The translations under genes and the position numbers were made by a program. DNA of 29,263 nucleotides from a virus, in the IMG/VR virus record IMGVR_UViG_3300021963_000492, positions 1-29,263 of that record; one strand, written 5' to 3'. Below are positions 1,151 to 14,059 of this stretch, piece by piece. Under the pieces are notes generated by a model. The model did not search any database, had not been told where the DNA came from, and worked only from the letters and a program-made list of their open reading frames with translations. Numbering within the stretch: position 1 is the stretch's first letter; each line of letters opens with the position of its first letter.

Positions 1151-1273
1151 ATGGGAAGCAAAGCAAAGAAACCAAGAGCAATGAGAAGCCGTAGAAGCGG
1201 TATTAAAAAATTAGAATTAGTAAAAGCTAATTTAGCAATTTTAAAAAAATTAGAGAGTGATAAAACTAACTAA
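1151..1273 (+). CDS. Small very basic protein (40 aa), uncharacterised
   Basis: ATG at 1151 lies 3 nt after the preceding stop and opens a 40-codon frame that ends at TAA 1271-1273. It overlaps the next gene's GTG start by 17 nt. The product is rich in Lys and Arg ('MGSKAKKPRAMRSRRSGIKK') followed by a Leu/Lys helix ('LELVKANLAILKKLESDK'). Tight packing with both neighbours and a plausible basic-tail-plus-helix composition favour a real gene, perhaps nucleic-acid binding, but no family is recognised and chance cannot be excluded for so short a frame. Confidence 0.5.
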   Translation: MGSKAKKPRAMRSRRSGIKKLELVKANLAILKKLESDKTN

Positions 1274-2189
1274 TATATTAAATGAAGGTGTGAGTGCTAA
1301 TGTAGTTACTTGCGATAAATGTAAATGGCATTGGAATATATCCGATGGTGGTAAAACTCCATATACTTGTCACAAATGCGGACATGATAATACGCCAATT
1401 GGAGAAGACCTTCGTAAGTGGTTTGGTAAAGGTAAGACTGGTTCAACTACTGGTGGGGGTTGGGATAGATATAATAGTAAAGGAGAGAAGGTAGGTAAGT
1501 GTGGAGATAGTAAAGAAGGTTCAGCATATGCGGCCTGTTTATCAAAAGAGAAAGCAGCAAAGTTAGGACCTGATGGTAGAGCTGCATTTGTAAAAAGAAA
1601 GAGAGCTGCCCAATCGGATGCTGGGGATAGTAAGAAAGGTGGTGAACAAAAGAAAGGACAGAAACCTACATTTGTAAAGACCGGAGCTAGTGAGGGATTG
1701 GAAGAAAAGTGGTCTCAAAAATATAAAAACTCAATAAATTGTAGTAATCCAAAAGGTTTCTCACAAAAAGCACATTGTGCTGGAAAAAAGAAAAACGAAA
1801 TTATGACAATAGAAGAAAAAATGGAATTATTCTTAGAAAAGAATTGTCCAACTGATCCGGGTAAATGGTCAGCATCCAAAGCAGCCGCTAAAAAGAAATT
1901 TGATGTATATCCATCTGCATATGCAAATGGATGGGCTGCAAAAAACTACAAATCAAAAGGTGGTGGTTGGAAAGTATGTAAGGAAAGTGTTATAAAGGAA
2001 GTAGAAGTGGCAGCTGGACACGAAAACGATAGAGATATGGTAACTGGTGTTGCTGAAATTCTTCGTATGGTAGATAATATGAACAATAGAAAAGAAATAG
2101 CAGATGCAATGTTAAGAAAATTCAAAGCAGAAGATGTAATACATGATGTGGATGAATTTTTAACACTTTGTGGACTATCAAAAATCTAA
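1257..2189 (+). CDS. Modular Zn-ribbon/Cys-Lys-rich protein with capsid-targeting-like leader
   Basis: The 310-aa protein starts at GTG (1257) and begins MIKLTNILNE, a ten-residue leader ending in L-x-E like the T4 internal-protein capsid-targeting sequence. A zinc ribbon follows (Cys19, Cys22, Cys38, Cys41). Then come several short modules that I recognise from marine phage and giant-virus proteins: a 'WDRYNSKGEKVGKC...AYAACLS' block (about 69-122), a 'WSQKYKNSINCSNPKGFSQK' block (152-178), and a DUF5872-like 'KKFDVYPSAYANGWAAKNYK' block (about 197-240). A helical C-terminus (about 245-310) ends the protein. The middle is strongly basic and glycine-rich, suggesting nucleic-acid contact. The leader and composition would suit a DNA-associated protein packaged in the head, but this is inference. 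A terminator follows directly. Confidence 0.6.
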   Translation: MIKLTNILNEGVSANVVTCDKCKWHWNISDGGKTPYTCHKCGHDNTPIGEDLRKWFGKGKTGSTTGGGWDRYNSKGEKVGKCGDSKEGSAYAACLSKEKAAKLGPDGRAAFVKRKRAAQSDAGDSKKGGEQKKGQKPTFVKTGASEGLEEKWSQKYKNSINCSNPKGFSQKAHCAGKKKNEIMTIEEKMELFLEKNCPTDPGKWSASKAAAKKKFDVYPSAYANGWAAKNYKSKGGGWKVCKESVIKEVEVAAGHENDRDMVTGVAEILRMVDNMNNRKEIADAMLRKFKAEDVIHDVDEFLTLCGLSKI

Positions 2190-2198
2190 AATTATTTT

Positions 2199-2224
2199 AA
2201 GGGGAGTGAATACTCCCTTTTTTT
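2199..2224 (+). terminator. Rho-independent terminator after the modular Zn-ribbon gene
   Basis: AAGGGGAGT (2199-2207) pairs with ACTCCCTTT (2212-2220, one G-T wobble) around a GAAT loop, followed by seven T (2218-2224). The flanks are the same as in the terminator at 365-394, including the promoter-like box that begins on the last T. Confidence 0.85.
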
Positions 2225-2233
2225 ATATTTATA
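2224..2233 (+). promoter_or_regulatory. Recurring promoter-like box TATATTTATA before the 279-aa exported protein
   Basis: This is an exact copy of the decamer at 394-403. It ends 20 nt before the ATG at 2254 and is fused to the T run of the terminator just upstream. Confidence 0.5.
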
Positions 2234-2253
2234 GGTAACTAAATAATATACCT

Positions 2254-3093
2254 ATGAAAAACTTATTATTTTTATTGGCATTTGTGCCAACACTAGCTTT
2301 TTCACAAGTTAGTAATTGGAGAAGTAATCCACCACAACAATCACAACCTCAACAAAGGTCTACACCATCAATACAACCATCAACTCCACAAAGAAATGAT
2401 GTTAGTAGATGGCGAGATGAATCGTCGAGAGAGTTTAATAGACCTTCTAGAACAAGACCTGGTTCAAACATAATTGTTAGAGACCCATTCTTTAATGATT
2501 GGGGATGGGGTTGGAATAGATGGAATATGTGGGGAGCACCTGGTTTTGGATGGAATTTTTGGCAACCATCATTCTACTGGAACGATTGGGGATATCGTCA
2601 GCCTGCAAGAATTTATGTTTATGGTGATGGTAAAAGAGATACAATTAGAGGTAAGAAGCCTGTAATTAGTTTTGGTATTCAGAAAACAACCGATAAACAA
2701 TTGGGCGGTTTCTTTACGATTGGTAATAAGGGATATCTTATAATGGAATACAATTCAAGTGTTGAAAGAGATAATTCAACATTCTTTCCATATGGTAATA
2801 TAACTCAAGTTGATTTTCCAATGGTCAATGATTTGATTCAACGAAATAGTTTTTATATCGGAGCTGGTAAACGAATAAAGAGAACCGGTGTTCACTTTAT
2901 GATTGGTACTGTTTCGGAAGATGTAAAATGGAGAGGTAAAGATGATTTGGGATATATTACATTCCCAAAATATTTAGATAGATTTACTACTATGAAAGTA
3001 GGAGCGTTACATGATTTTAAAAATTTAACAATAAAGTTTGATTATGACCCGGTAATCAATAGCAAAACTTTTGGATTGGGTGTGAATTTCTAA
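2254..3093 (+). CDS. Exported Trp/Gly/Asn-rich protein with barrel-like C-terminus
   Basis: The 279-aa product has a Sec signal peptide (MKNLLFLLAFVPTLAFSQ, likely cleavage AFS|Q). A Gln/Pro/Ser-rich low-complexity stretch follows to about residue 70. A striking Trp/Gly/Asn/Phe-rich region (about 80-115, for example 'DWGWGWNRWNMWG') comes next. The rest alternates polar and hydrophobic residues in strands and ends 'SKTFGLGVNF'. The terminal Phe on an amphipathic strand is typical of outer-membrane beta-barrels. I do not recognise a family. The next gene starts immediately after its stop (TAA-ATG), implying co-expression. It probably acts at the host outer membrane or is a surface-exposed virion component; the sequence cannot separate these. 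Confidence 0.6.
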   Translation: MKNLLFLLAFVPTLAFSQVSNWRSNPPQQSQPQQRSTPSIQPSTPQRNDVSRWRDESSREFNRPSRTRPGSNIIVRDPFFNDWGWGWNRWNMWGAPGFGWNFWQPSFYWNDWGYRQPARIYVYGDGKRDTIRGKKPVISFGIQKTTDKQLGGFFTIGNKGYLIMEYNSSVERDNSTFFPYGNITQVDFPMVNDLIQRNSFYIGAGKRIKRTGVHFMIGTVSEDVKWRGKDDLGYITFPKYLDRFTTMKVGALHDFKNLTIKFDYDPVINSKTFGLGVNF

Positions 3094-4512
3094 ATGAAAA
3101 AATGGGTAATTGTTTTATTGTTAATTGTTATATCTTCATTCGTTACGGAAGCGATAGGGCAAACTTATACCCAAACTTATAAGGATAAGTGTACCGGTGA
3201 AATTAAAATAGCAACTACCACAATTACAAATGGTTTTGCAACCGTATCATTTTATAATCAGATAAGAGTATTTTCTCCACAGGAGGTAATGGCTGGAGCG
3301 GTTCAAGTTTGGATAACCGCAACTTATACGGCATACTCAACTATGGGGTGTCCAACAAATGTGGTAGTTCAACAAGCGGTAACTCAAGCGGCAGCTCAAG
3401 CAGCATCTCAAGCTGCTTCACAAGCTGCAAGTTCGGCTGCATCATCTGCAGCAAGTTCATCGGCAAGTGCAGCGGCAAGTAGTAGTGCAGCAGCTGCATC
3501 GACACCTCCACCAACGGCATCGGCACCACCACCTTCTTCAAGTAGTAGTTCTACTCCACCGGCATCATCTGGAAGTAGTAGTTCTGGAAATAGTTCTTCA
3601 TCAGGTAGTTCATCTTCATCATCGGAAACAAAGACTGAAACAAAAACAGAGACTAAATCTGAAACAAAATCAGAGAGTAAATCGGAAAGCAAGTCAGAAT
3701 CAAAAGAGGAATCAAAGTCTGAAAGTAAATCGGAAGAAAAGAAAGAAGAATCTAAATCAGAGGAGAAAAAAGAGGAGAAGAAGGAAGAATCCAAAGAAGA
3801 AAAGAAAGAGGAGAAAAAATCTGAAAAGAAGAAAGAAGAGAAGAAGAAAGCAGTAGCTAATCCAATGATGTTAGCTAGTGATTTAGCAGGAACGGAAGAT
3901 ATGGAAGGTAGATATGCTGTAATGATGAGTGTAGGGGTTTCTAAATCATCTCTTATGGGTGATAAATCATATTCAGCTACCGCACTTATATGGAGTACCC
4001 TAAACCAATTTGCATTGAGTGCTGGGGTGACTAAGATGGATTTTGAGGATGGTAAATTAAATGCGATACATTCATATGGAACTACATTTGCTTACCTTAA
4101 AGGAACTCTAATGAACCTTAATGGGTATACCTGGATTAAACCACATCCTAAATACGGAACATTCGGATATAATGTGGGTGTTATTACCTTAATGATGCCA
4201 AAAATGAATGGTGGCGGGTATGATGTTTCGTTAAGTGCATCTGCTGTTGGATTTTGGATGAAACCCTACCAATATAATAGAAAGGTTACACTAACTCCAC
4301 AGGTATTCTTAATGCAATCACCAATAGCTTGGAACACAATGACGGGAAATAGTTCGGTAAGTAGAACGCCTGGTGTAATTTTAGGACTGGGATACGATTA
4401 TAAAATTAGTAGAAGATTTGCATTATCAACTTCTTATAGAGGAGCTATGACATTTGAACCTAATTTTAAATTGTTAAACAACTTTCAAATCGGTTCAAAA
4501 TTAGCTTTCTAA
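3094..4512 (+). CDS. Exported protein: small N-domain, long Ala/Ser-Pro-Lys/Glu spacer, barrel-like C-domain
   Basis: The 472-aa protein has a signal peptide with likely cleavage AIG|Q after residue 22. A compact domain with Cys33 and Cys87, possibly disulfide-bonded, runs from about 24 to 92. A low-complexity spacer occupies about 95-252: Ala/Ser/Gln, then Pro/Ser, poly-Ser, and finally a Lys/Glu/Ser tract likely to form a charged single alpha-helix. The C-terminal 215 residues look like amphipathic strands and end 'FQIGSKLAF' with terminal Phe, as in outer-membrane barrels. The spacer recalls periplasm-spanning proteins such as TonB or TolA in composition only. It shares a unit with the previous gene and its stop overlaps the next promoter-like box. 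Function is unknown; an outer-membrane or surface role is inferred. Confidence 0.6.
   Translation: MKKWVIVLLLIVISSFVTEAIGQTYTQTYKDKCTGEIKIATTTITNGFATVSFYNQIRVFSPQEVMAGAVQVWITATYTAYSTMGCPTNVVVQQAVTQAAAQAASQAASQAASSAASSAASSSASAAASSSAAAASTPPPTASAPPPSSSSSSTPPASSGSSSSGNSSSSGSSSSSSETKTETKTETKSETKSESKSESKSESKEESKSESKSEEKKEESKSEEKKEEKKEESKEEKKEEKKSEKKKEEKKKAVANPMMLASDLAGTEDMEGRYAVMMSVGVSKSSLMGDKSYSATALIWSTLNQFALSAGVTKMDFEDGKLNAIHSYGTTFAYLKGTLMNLNGYTWIKPHPKYGTFGYNVGVITLMMPKMNGGGYDVSLSASAVGFWMKPYQYNRKVTLTPQVFLMQSPIAWNTMTGNSSVSRTPGVILGLGYDYKISRRFALSTSYRGAMTFEPNFKLLNNFQIGSKLAF
3376..3849 (+). repeat. Low-complexity codon repeats (Ala/Ser, Pro/Ser, Lys/Glu/Ser spacer)
   Basis: About 474 nt inside the 472-aa gene consist of imperfect short repeats: GCA/GCT-Ser codons, then CCA/TCA, AGT/TCA runs, then ACAAAA/GAAACA and GAAAAGAAA-type units. 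The biased composition leaves two other frames open through the region (3408-3794 on the minus strand, 3467-3856 on the plus strand), which are artefacts. Such tracts are prone to length change by slippage. Confidence 0.8.
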
Positions 4513-4520
4513 TATTTATA
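4511..4520 (+). promoter_or_regulatory. Promoter-like box AATATTTATA before the 218-aa membrane protein
   Basis: AATATTTATA overlaps the stop codon of the preceding gene and ends 18 nt before the ATG at 4539. It is a one-base variant of the recurring box. Confidence 0.4.
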
Positions 4521-4538
4521 CACATAAAAACACGTCTT

Positions 4539-5195
4539 ATGAAAAAATTTGTTAATTTCAAAAACATTGCTATAGCAGCATTAATCATCTACATTCTTCT
4601 ACAATGGTTTAATCCAGGTGGAGTTATGCCAGGTGGAAGAACTATCAGAATTGATGGTAAAAAATATGAAGTATTAAAGCACACAATTGATACAATTGAA
4701 GTTGAAAAAACTAAAATAGTAACTAAAAAAGGTGCAGATATTATACATGAAGTAATTGATGTAGATACATTAGTTCTTAAAGAATTAGTAAATGTAGATA
4801 CCGCAGCATTACTTAAAGATTATTTAGCAAAAGTGGTTTACAAAGATACATTAACTTTAGATGGTGGATTGGGGACTATTGCATTAACTGATACCATCAC
4901 AAAGAATAGAATATTAGGAAGAACTTGGGATGCTAAAGTTAAAGAAAGAATCATCAAAGAAGAACTTATTGTTAAAGAACCTGCTAAAACACAATTATAC
5001 TATGGTTTAAATGGTGGATTTAATAAAACTGACTTTGTAAGTTCAGTAGGAGCTGGTTTACTTCTTAAAACTAAAAAAGATAAAATTTATCAATTTGGTT
5101 TAGGTGTAAACAATAGAACCACCGATGGAACTAATGGTTCATTCTCACCGTATGTTGGTTTTGGTACATATTGGAAAATTAAAGTAAAGAAATAA
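4539..5195 (+). CDS. N-terminally membrane-anchored protein, uncharacterised
   Basis: The 218-aa product has an N-terminal hydrophobic segment (about residues 10-24, 'IAIAALIIYILLQW') with no obvious cleavage site, so it is probably an inner-membrane anchor. A region rich in Thr, Val, Lys and Asp follows (about 35-140, for example 'LKHTIDTIEVEKTKIVTKKG'). The last 70 residues are Gly/aromatic strands ('YYGLNGGFNKTDFVSSVGAG', 'SFSPYVGFGTYWKI') resembling barrel or beta-sandwich segments. It is the first gene of a tightly spaced run leading through the leader-tagged proteins. An envelope role is plausible; no family is recognised. A spanin-like lysis role is possible by topology only and is not supported by motif. 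Confidence 0.5.
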   Translation: MKKFVNFKNIAIAALIIYILLQWFNPGGVMPGGRTIRIDGKKYEVLKHTIDTIEVEKTKIVTKKGADIIHEVIDVDTLVLKELVNVDTAALLKDYLAKVVYKDTLTLDGGLGTIALTDTITKNRILGRTWDAKVKERIIKEELIVKEPAKTQLYYGLNGGFNKTDFVSSVGAGLLLKTKKDKIYQFGLGVNNRTTDGTNGSFSPYVGFGTYWKIKVKK

Positions 5196-5196
5196 G

Positions 5197-5484
5197 ATGA
5201 TAAAATTAAAATCATTACTAACTGAAGCTAAGTTTGATGTATATCATAACACATACACTTCTGCAATAAATGCAGCCAGAGAGTATGCGGAAAAACAAGG
5301 ATATGAAATTAACGATGATGATGCTTTTAGAAAGATAGGAATGGGACCTCGTAAACCATCGGAAGGAAAGACTAATAAATTTAGTATTGAACTATCTAAA
5401 GGTGGAAAGGTACAAAGAAAACAACTACATATTCAGGTTTATGGAATGAAATCTAAATACGAATTAAACTGCTATATAGGATAA
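5197..5484 (+). CDS. Small protein with capsid-targeting-like leader (95 aa)
   Basis: The product begins MIKLKSLLTE|A, with Glu10 in an L-x-E context at the same place as the T4 internal-protein cleavage site. The remaining 85 residues form a compact alpha/beta-looking domain ('AINAAREYAEKQGYEINDDD', 'KFSIELSKGGKVQRKQLHIQ', 'KYELNCYIG'). I recall similar short proteins, also with leaders, in marine T4-like phages, but no function is established. It starts 1 nt after the previous stop and is followed at 1 nt by another leader-tagged gene. It is probably a packaged head protein ejected with DNA (inference). Confidence 0.6.
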   Translation: MIKLKSLLTEAKFDVYHNTYTSAINAAREYAEKQGYEINDDDAFRKIGMGPRKPSEGKTNKFSIELSKGGKVQRKQLHIQVYGMKSKYELNCYIG

Positions 5485-5485
5485 T

Positions 5486-5818
5486 ATGATAAAATTAATG
5501 GGTATTGTAACCGGAAAGCAAATTGTAAGTGAAGTTGGAAATCCTCATGAAAATCCTGAAGTTTTAGCTTTATCTAAAAAGATAGCTAAATTGACGGATA
5601 GAAATGACCATACTGCTTCGGTAATGGAATTGGCAAAATTTTTGAAAGATACTAAAGCGATTAAGAAATTAGAAGCAATAGAAGTAATACATAAAGTAGA
5701 AGGTTCAATGCCGGCTGAAATTTCAAAATATAGAGATAAAATTTTAAATGGATTGATGGATGTGGCGGGTGATAAATATAGTTTACACGATTATACAAAT
5801 TTAAAAGGAGCGTTTTAA
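5486..5818 (+). CDS. Small protein with related leader (110 aa), uncharacterised
   Basis: The N-terminus MIKLMGIVTGKQIVSE resembles the neighbouring leaders (M-I-K-L) but the first candidate L-x-E-like site is V-S-E at residues 14-16, so the tag is longer or degenerate. The rest is predicted helical ('PEVLALSKKIAKLTDRNDHT', 'TKAIKKLEAIEVIHKVEGSM') and ends 'DYTNLKGAF'. It lies between two leader-tagged genes with 1-nt gaps, so it is co-translated with them. No known family is recognised. Confidence 0.55.
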   Translation: MIKLMGIVTGKQIVSEVGNPHENPEVLALSKKIAKLTDRNDHTASVMELAKFLKDTKAIKKLEAIEVIHKVEGSMPAEISKYRDKILNGLMDVAGDKYSLHDYTNLKGAF

Positions 5819-5819
5819 A

Positions 5820-6044
5820 ATGCTTAAATTAAAAGATATATTACCGGAACGTCATAAGAATACTCCTAACGAAAGAATATCAAACTACAAAAAGAGAATT
5901 CAAAATCTAAAGGATAAAATAGCTAAAGCAGTGGATACAAATTCTGATACTGTAAAGTTACAAAAAAATCAAATTAAAGTTATTCAACAAACTATGAATA
6001 ATTTTAAACAATCACAAGTAATAAAGAACCAAAAAAGTGCTTAA
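5820..6044 (+). CDS. Small basic coiled-coil protein with capsid-targeting-like leader (74 aa)
   Basis: The product begins MLKLKDILPE|R, again with Glu10 in an L-x-E context. The body is a Lys/Gln/Asn-rich helix with heptad character ('RISNYKKRIQNLKDKIAKAV', then 'TVKLQKNQIKVIQQTMNNFK'). A purine-rich AAGGAG lies about 12 nt before the ATG, inside the end of the previous gene, one of the few SD-like strings in the window. The 3' end overlaps the GTG start of the Ntn hydrolase by 8 nt, suggesting translational coupling. Its small size, positive charge and leader fit an internal head protein, by inference. Confidence 0.6.
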   Translation: MLKLKDILPERHKNTPNERISNYKKRIQNLKDKIAKAVDTNSDTVKLQKNQIKVIQQTMNNFKQSQVIKNQKSA

Positions 6045-6849
6045 AGAGTGCATTATTGTATCTAAAGAAGTTGGAGATAAATTTATTCTAGCTAAAAATA
6101 GAGATAGAGCGTATAATCCATCTTTAGAAATTGTACACACCATTATTGATGGTGTTGAAGTTGCATATCTACATGATTTAGTAACTGACTGGAGTGAAGG
6201 TTTAAACGAAAAAGGAATAGGTGTTGTAAATTCGGCATTATTAGTTGGACACGATGAAGCAGAGCATAAGATTGTAAAGAAAGGTGGTAAACCTGGACCT
6301 GATGGTGATAAGATGAGAAACATCATCAAACAGCCTACATTGATAGATGCTGTTAAAGCTACACTTACTTATAAAGGTAAGAGTGGATTATCTTTAAAAG
6401 GACATACATTTGTATCATCCCCAAAACATATGGTTAGTATTGAAACTACATCAAAGCATAAGCCTGATGTTAAACTTCAAAACTCCGAATCACCTGTTGT
6501 TCGTACAAATCATGGACATATGTTCACCGATGCGGGTTATACAAATGGTGAGAAGTATTTAAGTTCAAAAATGAGAAAATTATCGGCTGAAAAATCAGTT
6601 GATAAAGTAGAAGATTGGAAAGAAGTAGCACAAGCTATGAGAAAAGAATTCTTCCCAAAAAGACCTCAATTGAATATGAAACGAGATACCAAAGAAATGT
6701 CTACTTCATCACAAACTGTAATGAACCTAACCGATAAGGTATTACAAATAACATACTTTAAGAACAAAGTAAACGAATTTAAGGGTATTAATAGACAACT
6801 ACCTGATGGGTATCAACCCAAAATTAGTATTGAGATTATTGAAGCATAA
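6037..6849 (+). CDS. Ntn-type linear amide hydrolase/acyltransferase-like protein
   Basis: The 270-aa product resembles the choloylglycine-hydrolase / C45 acyltransferase group of N-terminal-nucleophile hydrolases. Cys5 is the candidate nucleophile, followed by the 'LAKNRDR' motif (Arg22, Asp23), 'GLNEKGIGVVNSAL' (about 63-76), and 'VVRTNHG' later. These enzymes cleave non-peptide C-N amide bonds after the Cys becomes N-terminal. The start must be GTG at 6037: an in-frame stop lies at 6022-6024 and no ATG occurs before Cys5. This leaves a four-residue propeptide MLKE, whose L-K-E fits the (L/I)-x-E rule of T4-type prohead proteases. It follows three leader-tagged genes and closes the unit. 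The substrate is unknown; acyl-homoserine lactones, lipids or wall amides are all only possibilities. Confidence 0.7.
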   Translation: MLKECIIVSKEVGDKFILAKNRDRAYNPSLEIVHTIIDGVEVAYLHDLVTDWSEGLNEKGIGVVNSALLVGHDEAEHKIVKKGGKPGPDGDKMRNIIKQPTLIDAVKATLTYKGKSGLSLKGHTFVSSPKHMVSIETTSKHKPDVKLQNSESPVVRTNHGHMFTDAGYTNGEKYLSSKMRKLSAEKSVDKVEDWKEVAQAMRKEFFPKRPQLNMKRDTKEMSTSSQTVMNLTDKVLQITYFKNKVNEFKGINRQLPDGYQPKISIEIIEA

Positions 6850-9108: not shown

Positions 9109-10128
9109 ATGAGTTGGCAACTATTTAAAAAGAATTTAATAAATAGAATTTGTAATGCTAAACAAGTACCTGATATAGAGTATGTTGCTAAAGCATTTGC
9201 TGAAGAATATGATGCCGCGGTAAAAAGAGGTGGAACGATACCCGATAATATAAAAGTTACAAAAGGTAACGTAGAGGCTATGCAGACACTATTTGTTTCT
9301 GCTCTACAAAAAGGATTATCCAAAAATACTCCTTATGATTTAGTTGGTGAAATGGGAAGGGGGGTTAAAGCATATTGGGCTACCGCACAACTTGCACCAT
9401 TTCCAATACCATTACCAACTGCGCCACAACTAGCCACAAATGTAGCTGCAAATTTGACAAGTGTTAGTAATTCTATTACAAACCCTGGAACTTGGCCGGT
9501 TCAAGGAGATTTAGAAGAAACTAAAAAAGACGATAAAAGAAAAGAAACATCAGAAAATAAACCCGCTAAAGAGAATAATGAAAATGCCAAAAAGATTTTA
9601 TTGGTAGGAGATTCTATAACAGTGGATGCTGGATATACTTGGTCATCATATTATAAAAAAACTAATAGTAGAGCAAATGTTGAAATACTTGCAATCGGCG
9701 GTAAACAATTGACACTATGGATGAAACCAGAATTAGAAAAGAAACTGGCAACAACTAAATACGATAAAGTTTATATATACGGTGGCACAAATGATATATT
9801 TTCAGCTAAAAAAGCAGAAACTGTATTAACTGCATTACAATCGATGGTAGATGCCGTAACTAAAACTGGAGCACAGGCAATTGTGATTACAGGGTATGAT
9901 TCTGAAACAGATATGTTAATTGAAAATATGCCATTAACCAGATATGTAACAACTAAAGAAGGATACATTCCGTATTTACAAGAATATCAAAAATATCAAA
10001 GAATAATGGCAGGAACAATAACAGGTGCAACAATCGTTCCTAAAATATCGGTGGGTGCTATAAAAGATGGATTTCATCCTGTGGGTAATCAATCAAAAAT
10101 TTTATCTGAACACATAAACAAATACTAA
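9109..10128 (+). CDS. Tail-associated protein with C-terminal SGNH/GDSL hydrolase domain
   Basis: Residues 1 to about 115 form a helical domain ('AFAEEYDAAVKRGGTIPDNI', 'TPYDLVGEMGRGVKAYWATA') that I recall as a common structural-protein module in marine phages. A Pro/Ala-rich then Lys/Glu/Asn-rich linker leads to an SGNH hydrolase from about 160. Its block I is GDSI with nucleophile Ser169, the block II Gly is in 'AIGGKQL', block III is GGTND with Asn228, and block V is DGFH with Asp320 and His323, so the catalytic set is complete. SGNH enzymes are esterases or deacetylases. In a baseplate operon the likely substrate is an O-acylated surface polysaccharide, which is inference. The next ATG directly follows the stop. 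Confidence 0.75.
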   Translation: MSWQLFKKNLINRICNAKQVPDIEYVAKAFAEEYDAAVKRGGTIPDNIKVTKGNVEAMQTLFVSALQKGLSKNTPYDLVGEMGRGVKAYWATAQLAPFPIPLPTAPQLATNVAANLTSVSNSITNPGTWPVQGDLEETKKDDKRKETSENKPAKENNENAKKILLVGDSITVDAGYTWSSYYKKTNSRANVEILAIGGKQLTLWMKPELEKKLATTKYDKVYIYGGTNDIFSAKKAETVLTALQSMVDAVTKTGAQAIVITGYDSETDMLIENMPLTRYVTTKEGYIPYLQEYQKYQRIMAGTITGATIVPKISVGAIKDGFHPVGNQSKILSEHINKY

Positions 10129-12022: not shown

Positions 12023-14059
12023 ATGGCGTTGAGAAGTATAAATAAAAATTTTAAAAATAGAGGAAAAGATATAAAATATCTCAATAAAGATTTTTCTCAA
12101 TTTAAAGAAAATCTTGTTGAGTATGCAAAAACATATTTTCCAAAAGCTTATAATGACTTTAGTGATGCATCTCCGGGTACTCTTTTTATAGAAATGGCTG
12201 CCTATGTGGGAGATGTGTTATCTTATTACATTGATGATACGTTCAAACAATCTTTAATGGTATATGCGGATGATTTACAAAGCGTAATACCTTTAACGAG
12301 ATACTTGGGATATAAACCATTGGTTACATCACCATCTACAACAAAGATATCAGTATATCAACTTGTACCGTCTATTGGTAGTGGAATTTCTAATAAACCG
12401 GATTCAAAATATTATTTAAGAATTAAAAGTGGTATGGTTTTAGAATCATCACAAAACAATGTTGAATTTTACACCACAGATTACATAGATTTTAACGATG
12501 AAAACGATAGAGAAATTACCGTATATCAAAGAGATACATTAACGGGTGAACCATCTTTATATTTAATTAAAAAATATGCTGATGTAATTTCTGGTAATGT
12601 AAGAGTCAAACAAGAAATATTTGGTAGTTATTCTCCGTATCAAAGCGTTCTTTTACCGGAAAATGATATAATTCAAATTATTGATGTAAGAGATGCTGAT
12701 GGAAATAAGTATTATGAGGTACCGTATCTTGCACAGGAGATGGTGTTTATTGAACAACCAAATACTGCTACAAATGATCCAGATTTATATCAATTTAAAA
12801 CAACGGTTCCATATATTTTAAAAACAATAAAAACGCCTAAAAGATTTACAACTGTAATTAACGGTGATAGTACAACTACTTTACAATTTGGAGCAGGAGA
12901 CCCAACGGCATCGGATGAATTATTAATTCCAAATCTTAAAAATGTTGGATTGGGATTACCAAATTCTATCAATAGATTGGAAGAATCATTTGACCCAACA
13001 AACTTTTTAAAAACAAAAACATATGGAACATCGCCAGCAAATACAACTTTAACTATTAAGTATTTAACTGGAGGTGGAGTTTCATCAAATGTTGCAAGTA
13101 ATACTATAAATAAAATTAAGGTTATAGAATATGACGAAGATTTGAATGATTTTACCGCGCAAGAATTACCTCTTTATTTAAAGATGAAAAATACAATTGC
13201 GGTTGATAATGAAATTGCAGCATCTGGTGGAAGAAGTGGTGAAACTTTGCTTGAAATGAAACAAAATGCATTAGCACATTTTTCATCACAAAATAGAGCA
13301 GTAACCGCAAAAGATTATCAAATTAGAGTGTTATCAATGCCATCTAAATTTGGTGCAATTGCAAAAGCATACGCAACAGCCGATGGTACATTGGATAACA
13401 ATTCACCAGCATCAATATTGGCATCTCCAAATAATTTACAAGAATTTACTAATCTAGTAATGAATTTTGTAAATAAACCTGATAGCGAAGAACCAAGTGA
13501 AGCATCTGTAAAAGAAGATATTACCAAATTTTTAGTAGGAAAAACATCAAATGAAAACGAAAAAAATAACCCGTTTGCAATAAATCTTTATTTGCTATCA
13601 TATGATGGAAATGGCAATTTAACAAATATTAATAGAGCATTAAAAGAAAATTTAAAAACATATTTAAACGAATACAAAATATTAACCGATGGTGTCAATA
13701 TGTTGGATGGATTTGTGATAAATATAGGTGTTGATTTTGAAATTATTTGTTATCCAAACTATAATAAAGCGGAAGTATTGGTAGAGTGTGTAAATGAATT
13801 AAAGGACTATTTTATAGTTGATAATTGGCAATTTAACCAAACTATAAATTTAAGTGAAATTGAATTACTTCTTGCAAACATAGAAGGAGTTCAATCTGTT
13901 CCAATGTTAAAAATAACAAATAAGTGTGGTGGTAATTATTCACCAAATTCTTATAATATTGATGCGGCTACCAAAGATAAGATTGTATATCCATCTTTAG
14001 ACCCATCAATTTTTGAAGTTAAGTTTCCTGATAAAGATATAAAAGGTAGAGTAAGATAA
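12023..14059 (+). CDS. 6: gp6-like baseplate wedge protein
   Basis: The 678-aa length is close to T4 gp6 (about 660). The N-terminus 'DASPGTLFIEMAAYVGDVLS' followed by 'YYIDDTFKQSLMVYADDLQS' is the classic gp6/J-like opening, and 'GRSGETLLEMKQNALAHFSS' then 'AVTAKDYQIRVLSMPSKFGA' matches the middle domain of this family. gp6 dimers make the inner ring of the baseplate that changes shape on contraction. A weak insertion-like stretch occurs around 470-520 (Ser/Asn/Glu-rich). The stop overlaps the next start (TAATG). Confidence 0.9.
   Translation: MALRSINKNFKNRGKDIKYLNKDFSQFKENLVEYAKTYFPKAYNDFSDASPGTLFIEMAAYVGDVLSYYIDDTFKQSLMVYADDLQSVIPLTRYLGYKPLVTSPSTTKISVYQLVPSIGSGISNKPDSKYYLRIKSGMVLESSQNNVEFYTTDYIDFNDENDREITVYQRDTLTGEPSLYLIKKYADVISGNVRVKQEIFGSYSPYQSVLLPENDIIQIIDVRDADGNKYYEVPYLAQEMVFIEQPNTATNDPDLYQFKTTVPYILKTIKTPKRFTTVINGDSTTTLQFGAGDPTASDELLIPNLKNVGLGLPNSINRLEESFDPTNFLKTKTYGTSPANTTLTIKYLTGGGVSSNVASNTINKIKVIEYDEDLNDFTAQELPLYLKMKNTIAVDNEIAASGGRSGETLLEMKQNALAHFSSQNRAVTAKDYQIRVLSMPSKFGAIAKAYATADGTLDNNSPASILASPNNLQEFTNLVMNFVNKPDSEEPSEASVKEDITKFLVGKTSNENEKNNPFAINLYLLSYDGNGNLTNINRALKENLKTYLNEYKILTDGVNMLDGFVINIGVDFEIICYPNYNKAEVLVECVNELKDYFIVDNWQFNQTINLSEIELLLANIEGVQSVPMLKITNKCGGNYSPNSYNIDAATKDKIVYPSLDPSIFEVKFPDKDIKGRVR

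Follow-up and report, generated by a model that had tools for sequence, protein, structure and literature searches.

Proteins that a phage injects act ahead of all phage gene expression, and they are hard to spot since their bodies share nothing. In T4, the internal proteins IPI to IPIII and Alt carry a capsid-targeting sequence (CTS), an N-terminal leader of about ten residues (MKTYQEFIAE) that precedes unrelated bodies and ends in an (L/I)xE site, in a genome that encodes the gp21 protease (Mullaney and Black, 1996; reviewed in PMC9026906). In IPIII, residues 4 and 7 act in targeting and residues 8 and 10 in processing, which is blocked by Asp at residue 10 (PMC9026906). Ip1 to Ip3 are injected anti-restriction proteins, and T-even internal proteins have long been recognised by their leader (PMC12373910). 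In the giant phages SPN3US and phiKZ, a gp21-related protease likewise cuts head proteins after Glu, and these are ejected, but the SPN3US propeptides are mostly far longer than the leader described here (about 125 residues, and one of 20; PMC5694885). Finally, C45 Ntn hydrolases, such as isopenicillin N acyltransferase and penicillin V acylase, have an N-terminal Cys behind a propeptide.

We analysed a window of 29,263 nucleotides, positions 1–29,263 of IMG/VR record IMGVR_UViG_3300021963_000492, in which several proteins share the start MIKL..LLxE. As judged from sequence comparisons, this start is very probably a T4-type capsid-targeting propeptide of a large T4-like phage, cut by a gp21-type protease, the cargo being injected. 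The principle is already known; what is new is the scale (some 120 or more families of cargo among the relatives), the layout of apparent multi-module polyproteins with internal sites, and a possible zymogen switch in a C45 hydrolase with a four-residue propeptide, all three unlike the T4 internal proteins.

Leader proteins in the window

The sequence-only reading had described three leaders with Glu at residue 10, a fourth variant start, and unrelated bodies behind them, and it was exact on each point. The leaders, all on the + strand, are MIKLTNILNE (1257–1286) in a 310-aa protein (1257–2189), MIKLKSLLTE followed by AKFDVYHN in a 95-aa protein (5197–5484), and MLKLKDILPE followed by RHKNTPNER in a 74-aa protein (5820–6044). 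The leader of the 110-aa protein at 5486–5818 (+ strand) is a variant of 16 residues, MIKLMGIVTGKQIVSE, in which V-S-E occupies residues 14–16 and V comes next; a homologue of this protein in a relative (L125) has a canonical Glu10 leader. The best cross-hit among the bodies had E = 0.38. The GTG start of ORF 1257 is backed by same-frame homologues, one of which has ATG (L084). When N-terminal composition was taken from six related genomes, the probability that three such leaders arise by chance in 29 genes was about 4e-13. ORF 6037, which lay outside the group first described, starts M-L-K-E before a Cys and was added to the set.

Searches of Pfam and PHROGs did not assign a function to the body of 5197 or to that of 5486. 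The body of 5197 is predicted to form helices and a three-stranded sheet, a fold without a confident match among solved structures. In one relative (L009), the RHKNTPNER module of ORF 5820 is immediately preceded by a second site, GDLNE.

Interspersed among the leader genes are four ORFs with N-termini resembling signal peptides or membrane anchors (419–1147, 2254–3093, 3094–4512 and 4539–5195), of which 3094–4512 contains long low-complexity runs of Ser/Ala and Lys/Glu/Ser.

Source phage, prohead protease and capsid site

In homology searches, the tail and baseplate proteins of the window were nearest to those of Flavobacterium phage immuto and Microcystis phage Mel-JY01. The source is a large freshwater phage, T4-like and distantly related to T4. 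Its host is probably a member of the Bacteroidota, because related isolates grow on Flavobacterium (immuto) and Chryseobacterium (MA9V-1). Published proteomics was looked for, and immuto was absent from the coverage of the Baltic Flavobacterium paper. The gene at 9109–10128, amid baseplate genes, encodes a GDSL lipase/acylhydrolase domain (E 4.9e-11).

A 274-kb contig (G001) was 97–100% identical to the window across most shared genes, with lower identity at ORF 1257 (85%) and at the left-end ORF (93%). One of its ends meets the window near 2.2 kb and the other near 17.6 kb, so that the window appears to fill a gap of G001. Because of this near-identity and of the ends meeting the window, G001 was used as a proxy for the window's own genome.

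If the leader is a capsid-targeting sequence, a gp21-type protease should be encoded in the same genome, and one was found in G001, outside the window. Aligned to the T4 enzyme, it matches at the catalytic His85 and Ser140 and at an N-terminal LLIE. This protease (PF03420; S77) was present in 9 of 12 records, namely G001 and most large relatives. The capsid protein of G001 has (L/I/V)xE aligned with Glu65 of T4 gp23, and in all relatives with sequence at that cut, (L/I/V)xE precedes an Ala or a Ser. The leader itself was found again elsewhere in G001, including inside the head gene cluster, whose order is terminase, a leader protein (MIKLTNILKE), portal, protease, scaffold and gp23 (names by homology). 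Large contigs picked by the leader encoded the protease in 12 of 15 cases and gp23 in 12 of 15, compared with 1 of 14 for the protease in contigs picked by a scrambled leader, a contrast that may be inflated by unmatched length (51–369 kb vs 45–133 kb). Two contigs, G002 (188 kb) and G004 (207 kb), have leader genes with both protease and gp23 absent from the contig, perhaps owing to incompleteness.

Conservation of the leader across relatives

In all, 296 distinct ORFs start with the leader M-I-K-L-x-x-(L/I)-L-x-E, and they fell into 131 cargo clusters, or about 120 once obvious chance matches were removed; the bodies of these 120–130 clusters are unrelated. Information amounted to 2.4–3.9 bits per residue at positions 2–4, 7, 8 and 10, to 0.3 bits at position 11 and to about 0.1 from position 12 onward, so that conservation ends sharply at Glu10. 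Since the search pattern for the 296 ORFs itself required Glu10, residue 10 was tested on a separate, unbiased subset in which it was left free: Glu was present in 83 of 102 cases and Asp in none.

IPII, IPIII, Alt and the capsid vertex protein gp24 of T4 have hydrophobic residues (or Tyr) at positions 4, 7 and 8 and Glu at position 10, in the same register. Among T4 proteins, gp24 (MAKINELLRE; I4, L7, L8, E10) comes nearest to the leader pattern, but it differs from the proteins considered here in being a shell protein and not injected cargo. Positions 4, 7, 8 and 10, which are constrained in the leader, are also the ones implicated in the CTS by T4 genetics. Together with the protease and the gp23 site, these matches and the preference for Glu over Asp strongly support the likeness to the T4 CTS that was first proposed from the window. 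The leader string itself did not turn up in the open-access literature searched.

During head assembly, the hydrophobic face formed by leader residues 4, 7 and 8 would dock the tagged protein in the prohead core, and the gp21-type protease would then cut after Glu10 at (L/I)xE. Unrelated mature proteins would thus be left in the head and would enter the host with the DNA. We infer packaging, cleavage, injection, enzyme activation and host targets from comparisons of this kind.

ORF 1257–2189, a candidate polyprotein

The 310-aa protein encoded at 1257–2189 resembles a polyprotein, with modules joined at (L/I)xE. Behind its leader come a zinc-ribbon-like segment (with CDKC and CHKC) and modules beginning DLRKWF, KWSQKY, KMELFLEKNC (which continues to KFDVYPSAYANGWAAK) and VEVAAGHENDRD. 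Further (L/I)xE sites end at residues 50, 150, 187 and 248 (5 sites observed vs 1.8 expected). Three of them are predicted cleavage sites on the + strand: I-G-E before DLRKWF (1398–1406; P1 Glu in 50 of 53 distinct homologous junctions), L-E-E before KWSQKY (1698–1706; 27 of 30) and I-K-E before VEVAAGHENDRD (1992–2000; 7 of 7), the last module being a separate leader gene in G001 (1689–1904). The IEE at residue 187 is missing from the G001 homologue.

Relatives have modules of this ORF as individual leader genes (DLRNWF in L085, KWSQKY in L114 and VEV in L084). In G001, the counterpart of the whole ORF consists of two leader genes, split exactly before VEV, the downstream half having its own leader. 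When 127 distinct junctions from six modules were pooled, P1 was Glu in 121 and [LIVM]xE was present in 108, and other upstream offsets gave at most 5 of 127. This pool leaves out the 5197 family on account of a two-residue shift in its alignment; in a separate alignment, most members of that family have a Glu-Ala junction. Within this multidomain ORF, Glu might in part be conserved as a property of the domain itself, and P1' is likewise conserved in the DLR and C45 families. The protease that would remove the leader probably also cuts ORF 1257–2189 into several modules.

Near gp16/gp17 of Synechococcus phages S-BM3 and S-SM2 (L566, L567), a DLRDWF module was observed in a protein of the T4-GC 119 family. 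Gene 108 of S-SM2 starts MKTLKQFLKE and carries an SNKYKKSIDC module.

ORF 6037–6849, a predicted C45-type Ntn hydrolase

ORF 6037–6849 (+ strand) encodes a predicted 270-aa C45-type Ntn hydrolase with a minimal propeptide, M-L-K-E, and Cys5 as the predicted nucleophile; the predicted cleavage site, L-K-E before Cys5, lies at 6040–6048 (+ strand). It matched the C45 proenzyme model NF040521 with E 5.8e-6 and 25.9 bits, under the curated cut-off of 85. The predicted structure (mean pLDDT 75) has an Ntn-hydrolase fold (TM about 0.5), and its PDB matches at E <= 0.001, where named, were of Ntn type: isopenicillin N acyltransferase (IAT), penicillin V acylase (PVA), bile salt hydrolase, C69, PurO and MTH1020. 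The predicted fold, and a Cys predicted to become N-terminal on loss of a propeptide, resemble those of known C45 hydrolases. Unlike in these enzymes, the last residues of the propeptide are (L/I)xE, the phage has a protease expected to share that specificity, and in one relative the C45 domain is embedded in a polyprotein.

In this phage, the gp21-type protease would probably also trim M-L-K-E from the hydrolase, exposing the N-terminal catalytic cysteine, so that head maturation could activate the enzyme. Taken as a whole, the proposal that the hydrolase is packaged as an inactive precursor and unmasked in the head at (L/I)xE/C, while the same protease cuts the leader polyprotein into several injected proteins, is one that we hold tentatively, at slightly less than an even chance. 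For ORF 6037 alone, the hydrolase might instead cleave itself free of the propeptide, like other C45 proenzymes, the Glu before Cys being no head-protease site. Autoproteolysis of the proenzyme is part of the definition of the C45 family (NF040521), and the fold of ORF 6037 also matched the precursors of isopenicillin N acyltransferase and penicillin V acylase. Self-removal is a serious possibility, although we would not call it the expected outcome. Three observations argue against it. First, (L/I/V/M)xE directly precedes Cys in 30 of 30 distinct sequences, in which the propeptide varies in length and sequence. Second, the homologue in the isolate MA9V-1 (MA9V1_182) has EFLNE/C. Third, a 609-aa ORF in a relative (L119) starts MIHE and fuses a DLRAWF module, an KFDVYPSAYANAWAAK module and a C45 hydrolase, whose domain follows 334 residues of leader-cargo modules at the junction ESKLNE/C.

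Cellular relatives of the C45 protein that might start Met-Cys were sought, and none was found. If the head protease does unmask the cysteine, head maturation would have a distinctive role in switching on a packaged enzyme; no account of such a switch turned up in the open-access literature searched.

Other explanations of the shared leader

The leader might send proteins to the tail or baseplate, or to a membrane as a short amphipathic helix with Glu10 only as helix cap. The position of the leader genes in the window, just upstream of baseplate genes (a gp6-like homologue lies at 12023) and adjoining genes with signal-peptide-like N-termini, is in keeping with this. We nevertheless consider it quite unlikely, as Asp is not tolerated at residue 10, the leader co-occurs with the protease and gp23, one leader gene lies between terminase and portal, and the sites recur within ORFs at module borders. 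Bodies are freely swapped behind the same start, as they would be if a translation initiation signal or a recombination boundary shuffled genes without any targeting role, but this DNA-level origin was rejected as most improbable, because leader codons vary synonymously at conserved residues, which places the constraint on the protein, and because conservation is specific to residues 4, 7, 8 and 10 and xE junctions also occur inside ORFs. When the leader DNA pattern was scanned over viral contigs, it opened an ORF of at least 50 aa in 147 of 159 matches (25 of 120 for a scrambled pattern), and it recurred in 25 of 120 loci (scrambled pattern, 0 of 120).

Predicted cargo in relatives

Under the capsid-targeting reading, a ten-residue leader that is readable in raw sequence would make the injected proteins of uncultured phages a searchable set. 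This set already holds candidates for host takeover or anti-defence (ADP-ribosyltransferase, kinase-like, Nudix and 2H phosphoesterase proteins); the cargo functions are predictions by family matches, several of them under curated cut-offs. One leader protein (L266) matched ADP-ribosyltransferases (PF03496, E 7e-11), a class of enzyme to which T4 Alt also belongs. Other cargo matched a Zeta/AAA kinase with a 5'-3' deoxyribonucleotidase half, a T7 0.7-like kinase, Nudix, RNase T-type exonuclease and DHH families. A 2H phosphoesterase-like protein resembling the anti-CBASS protein Acb1 (G003, 133078–133650) has two HxT motifs, HCT and HMT, and scored under the cut-off of 27 with both PF23474 (E 8.4e-4, 19.5 bits) and PF13563 (E 6e-6, 26.8 bits).

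Phage immuto has leader genes of its own, KNV73_gp231 (MIKLIDLLTE/S) and gp093 (MISIYNILKE/V). Another leader type in this phage, M(E/A)NFDLKKFLVENKLTxNS, is longer and was observed at 1803, 103806, 117631 and 118632; it mostly ends in (L/I)xE at about residue 24.
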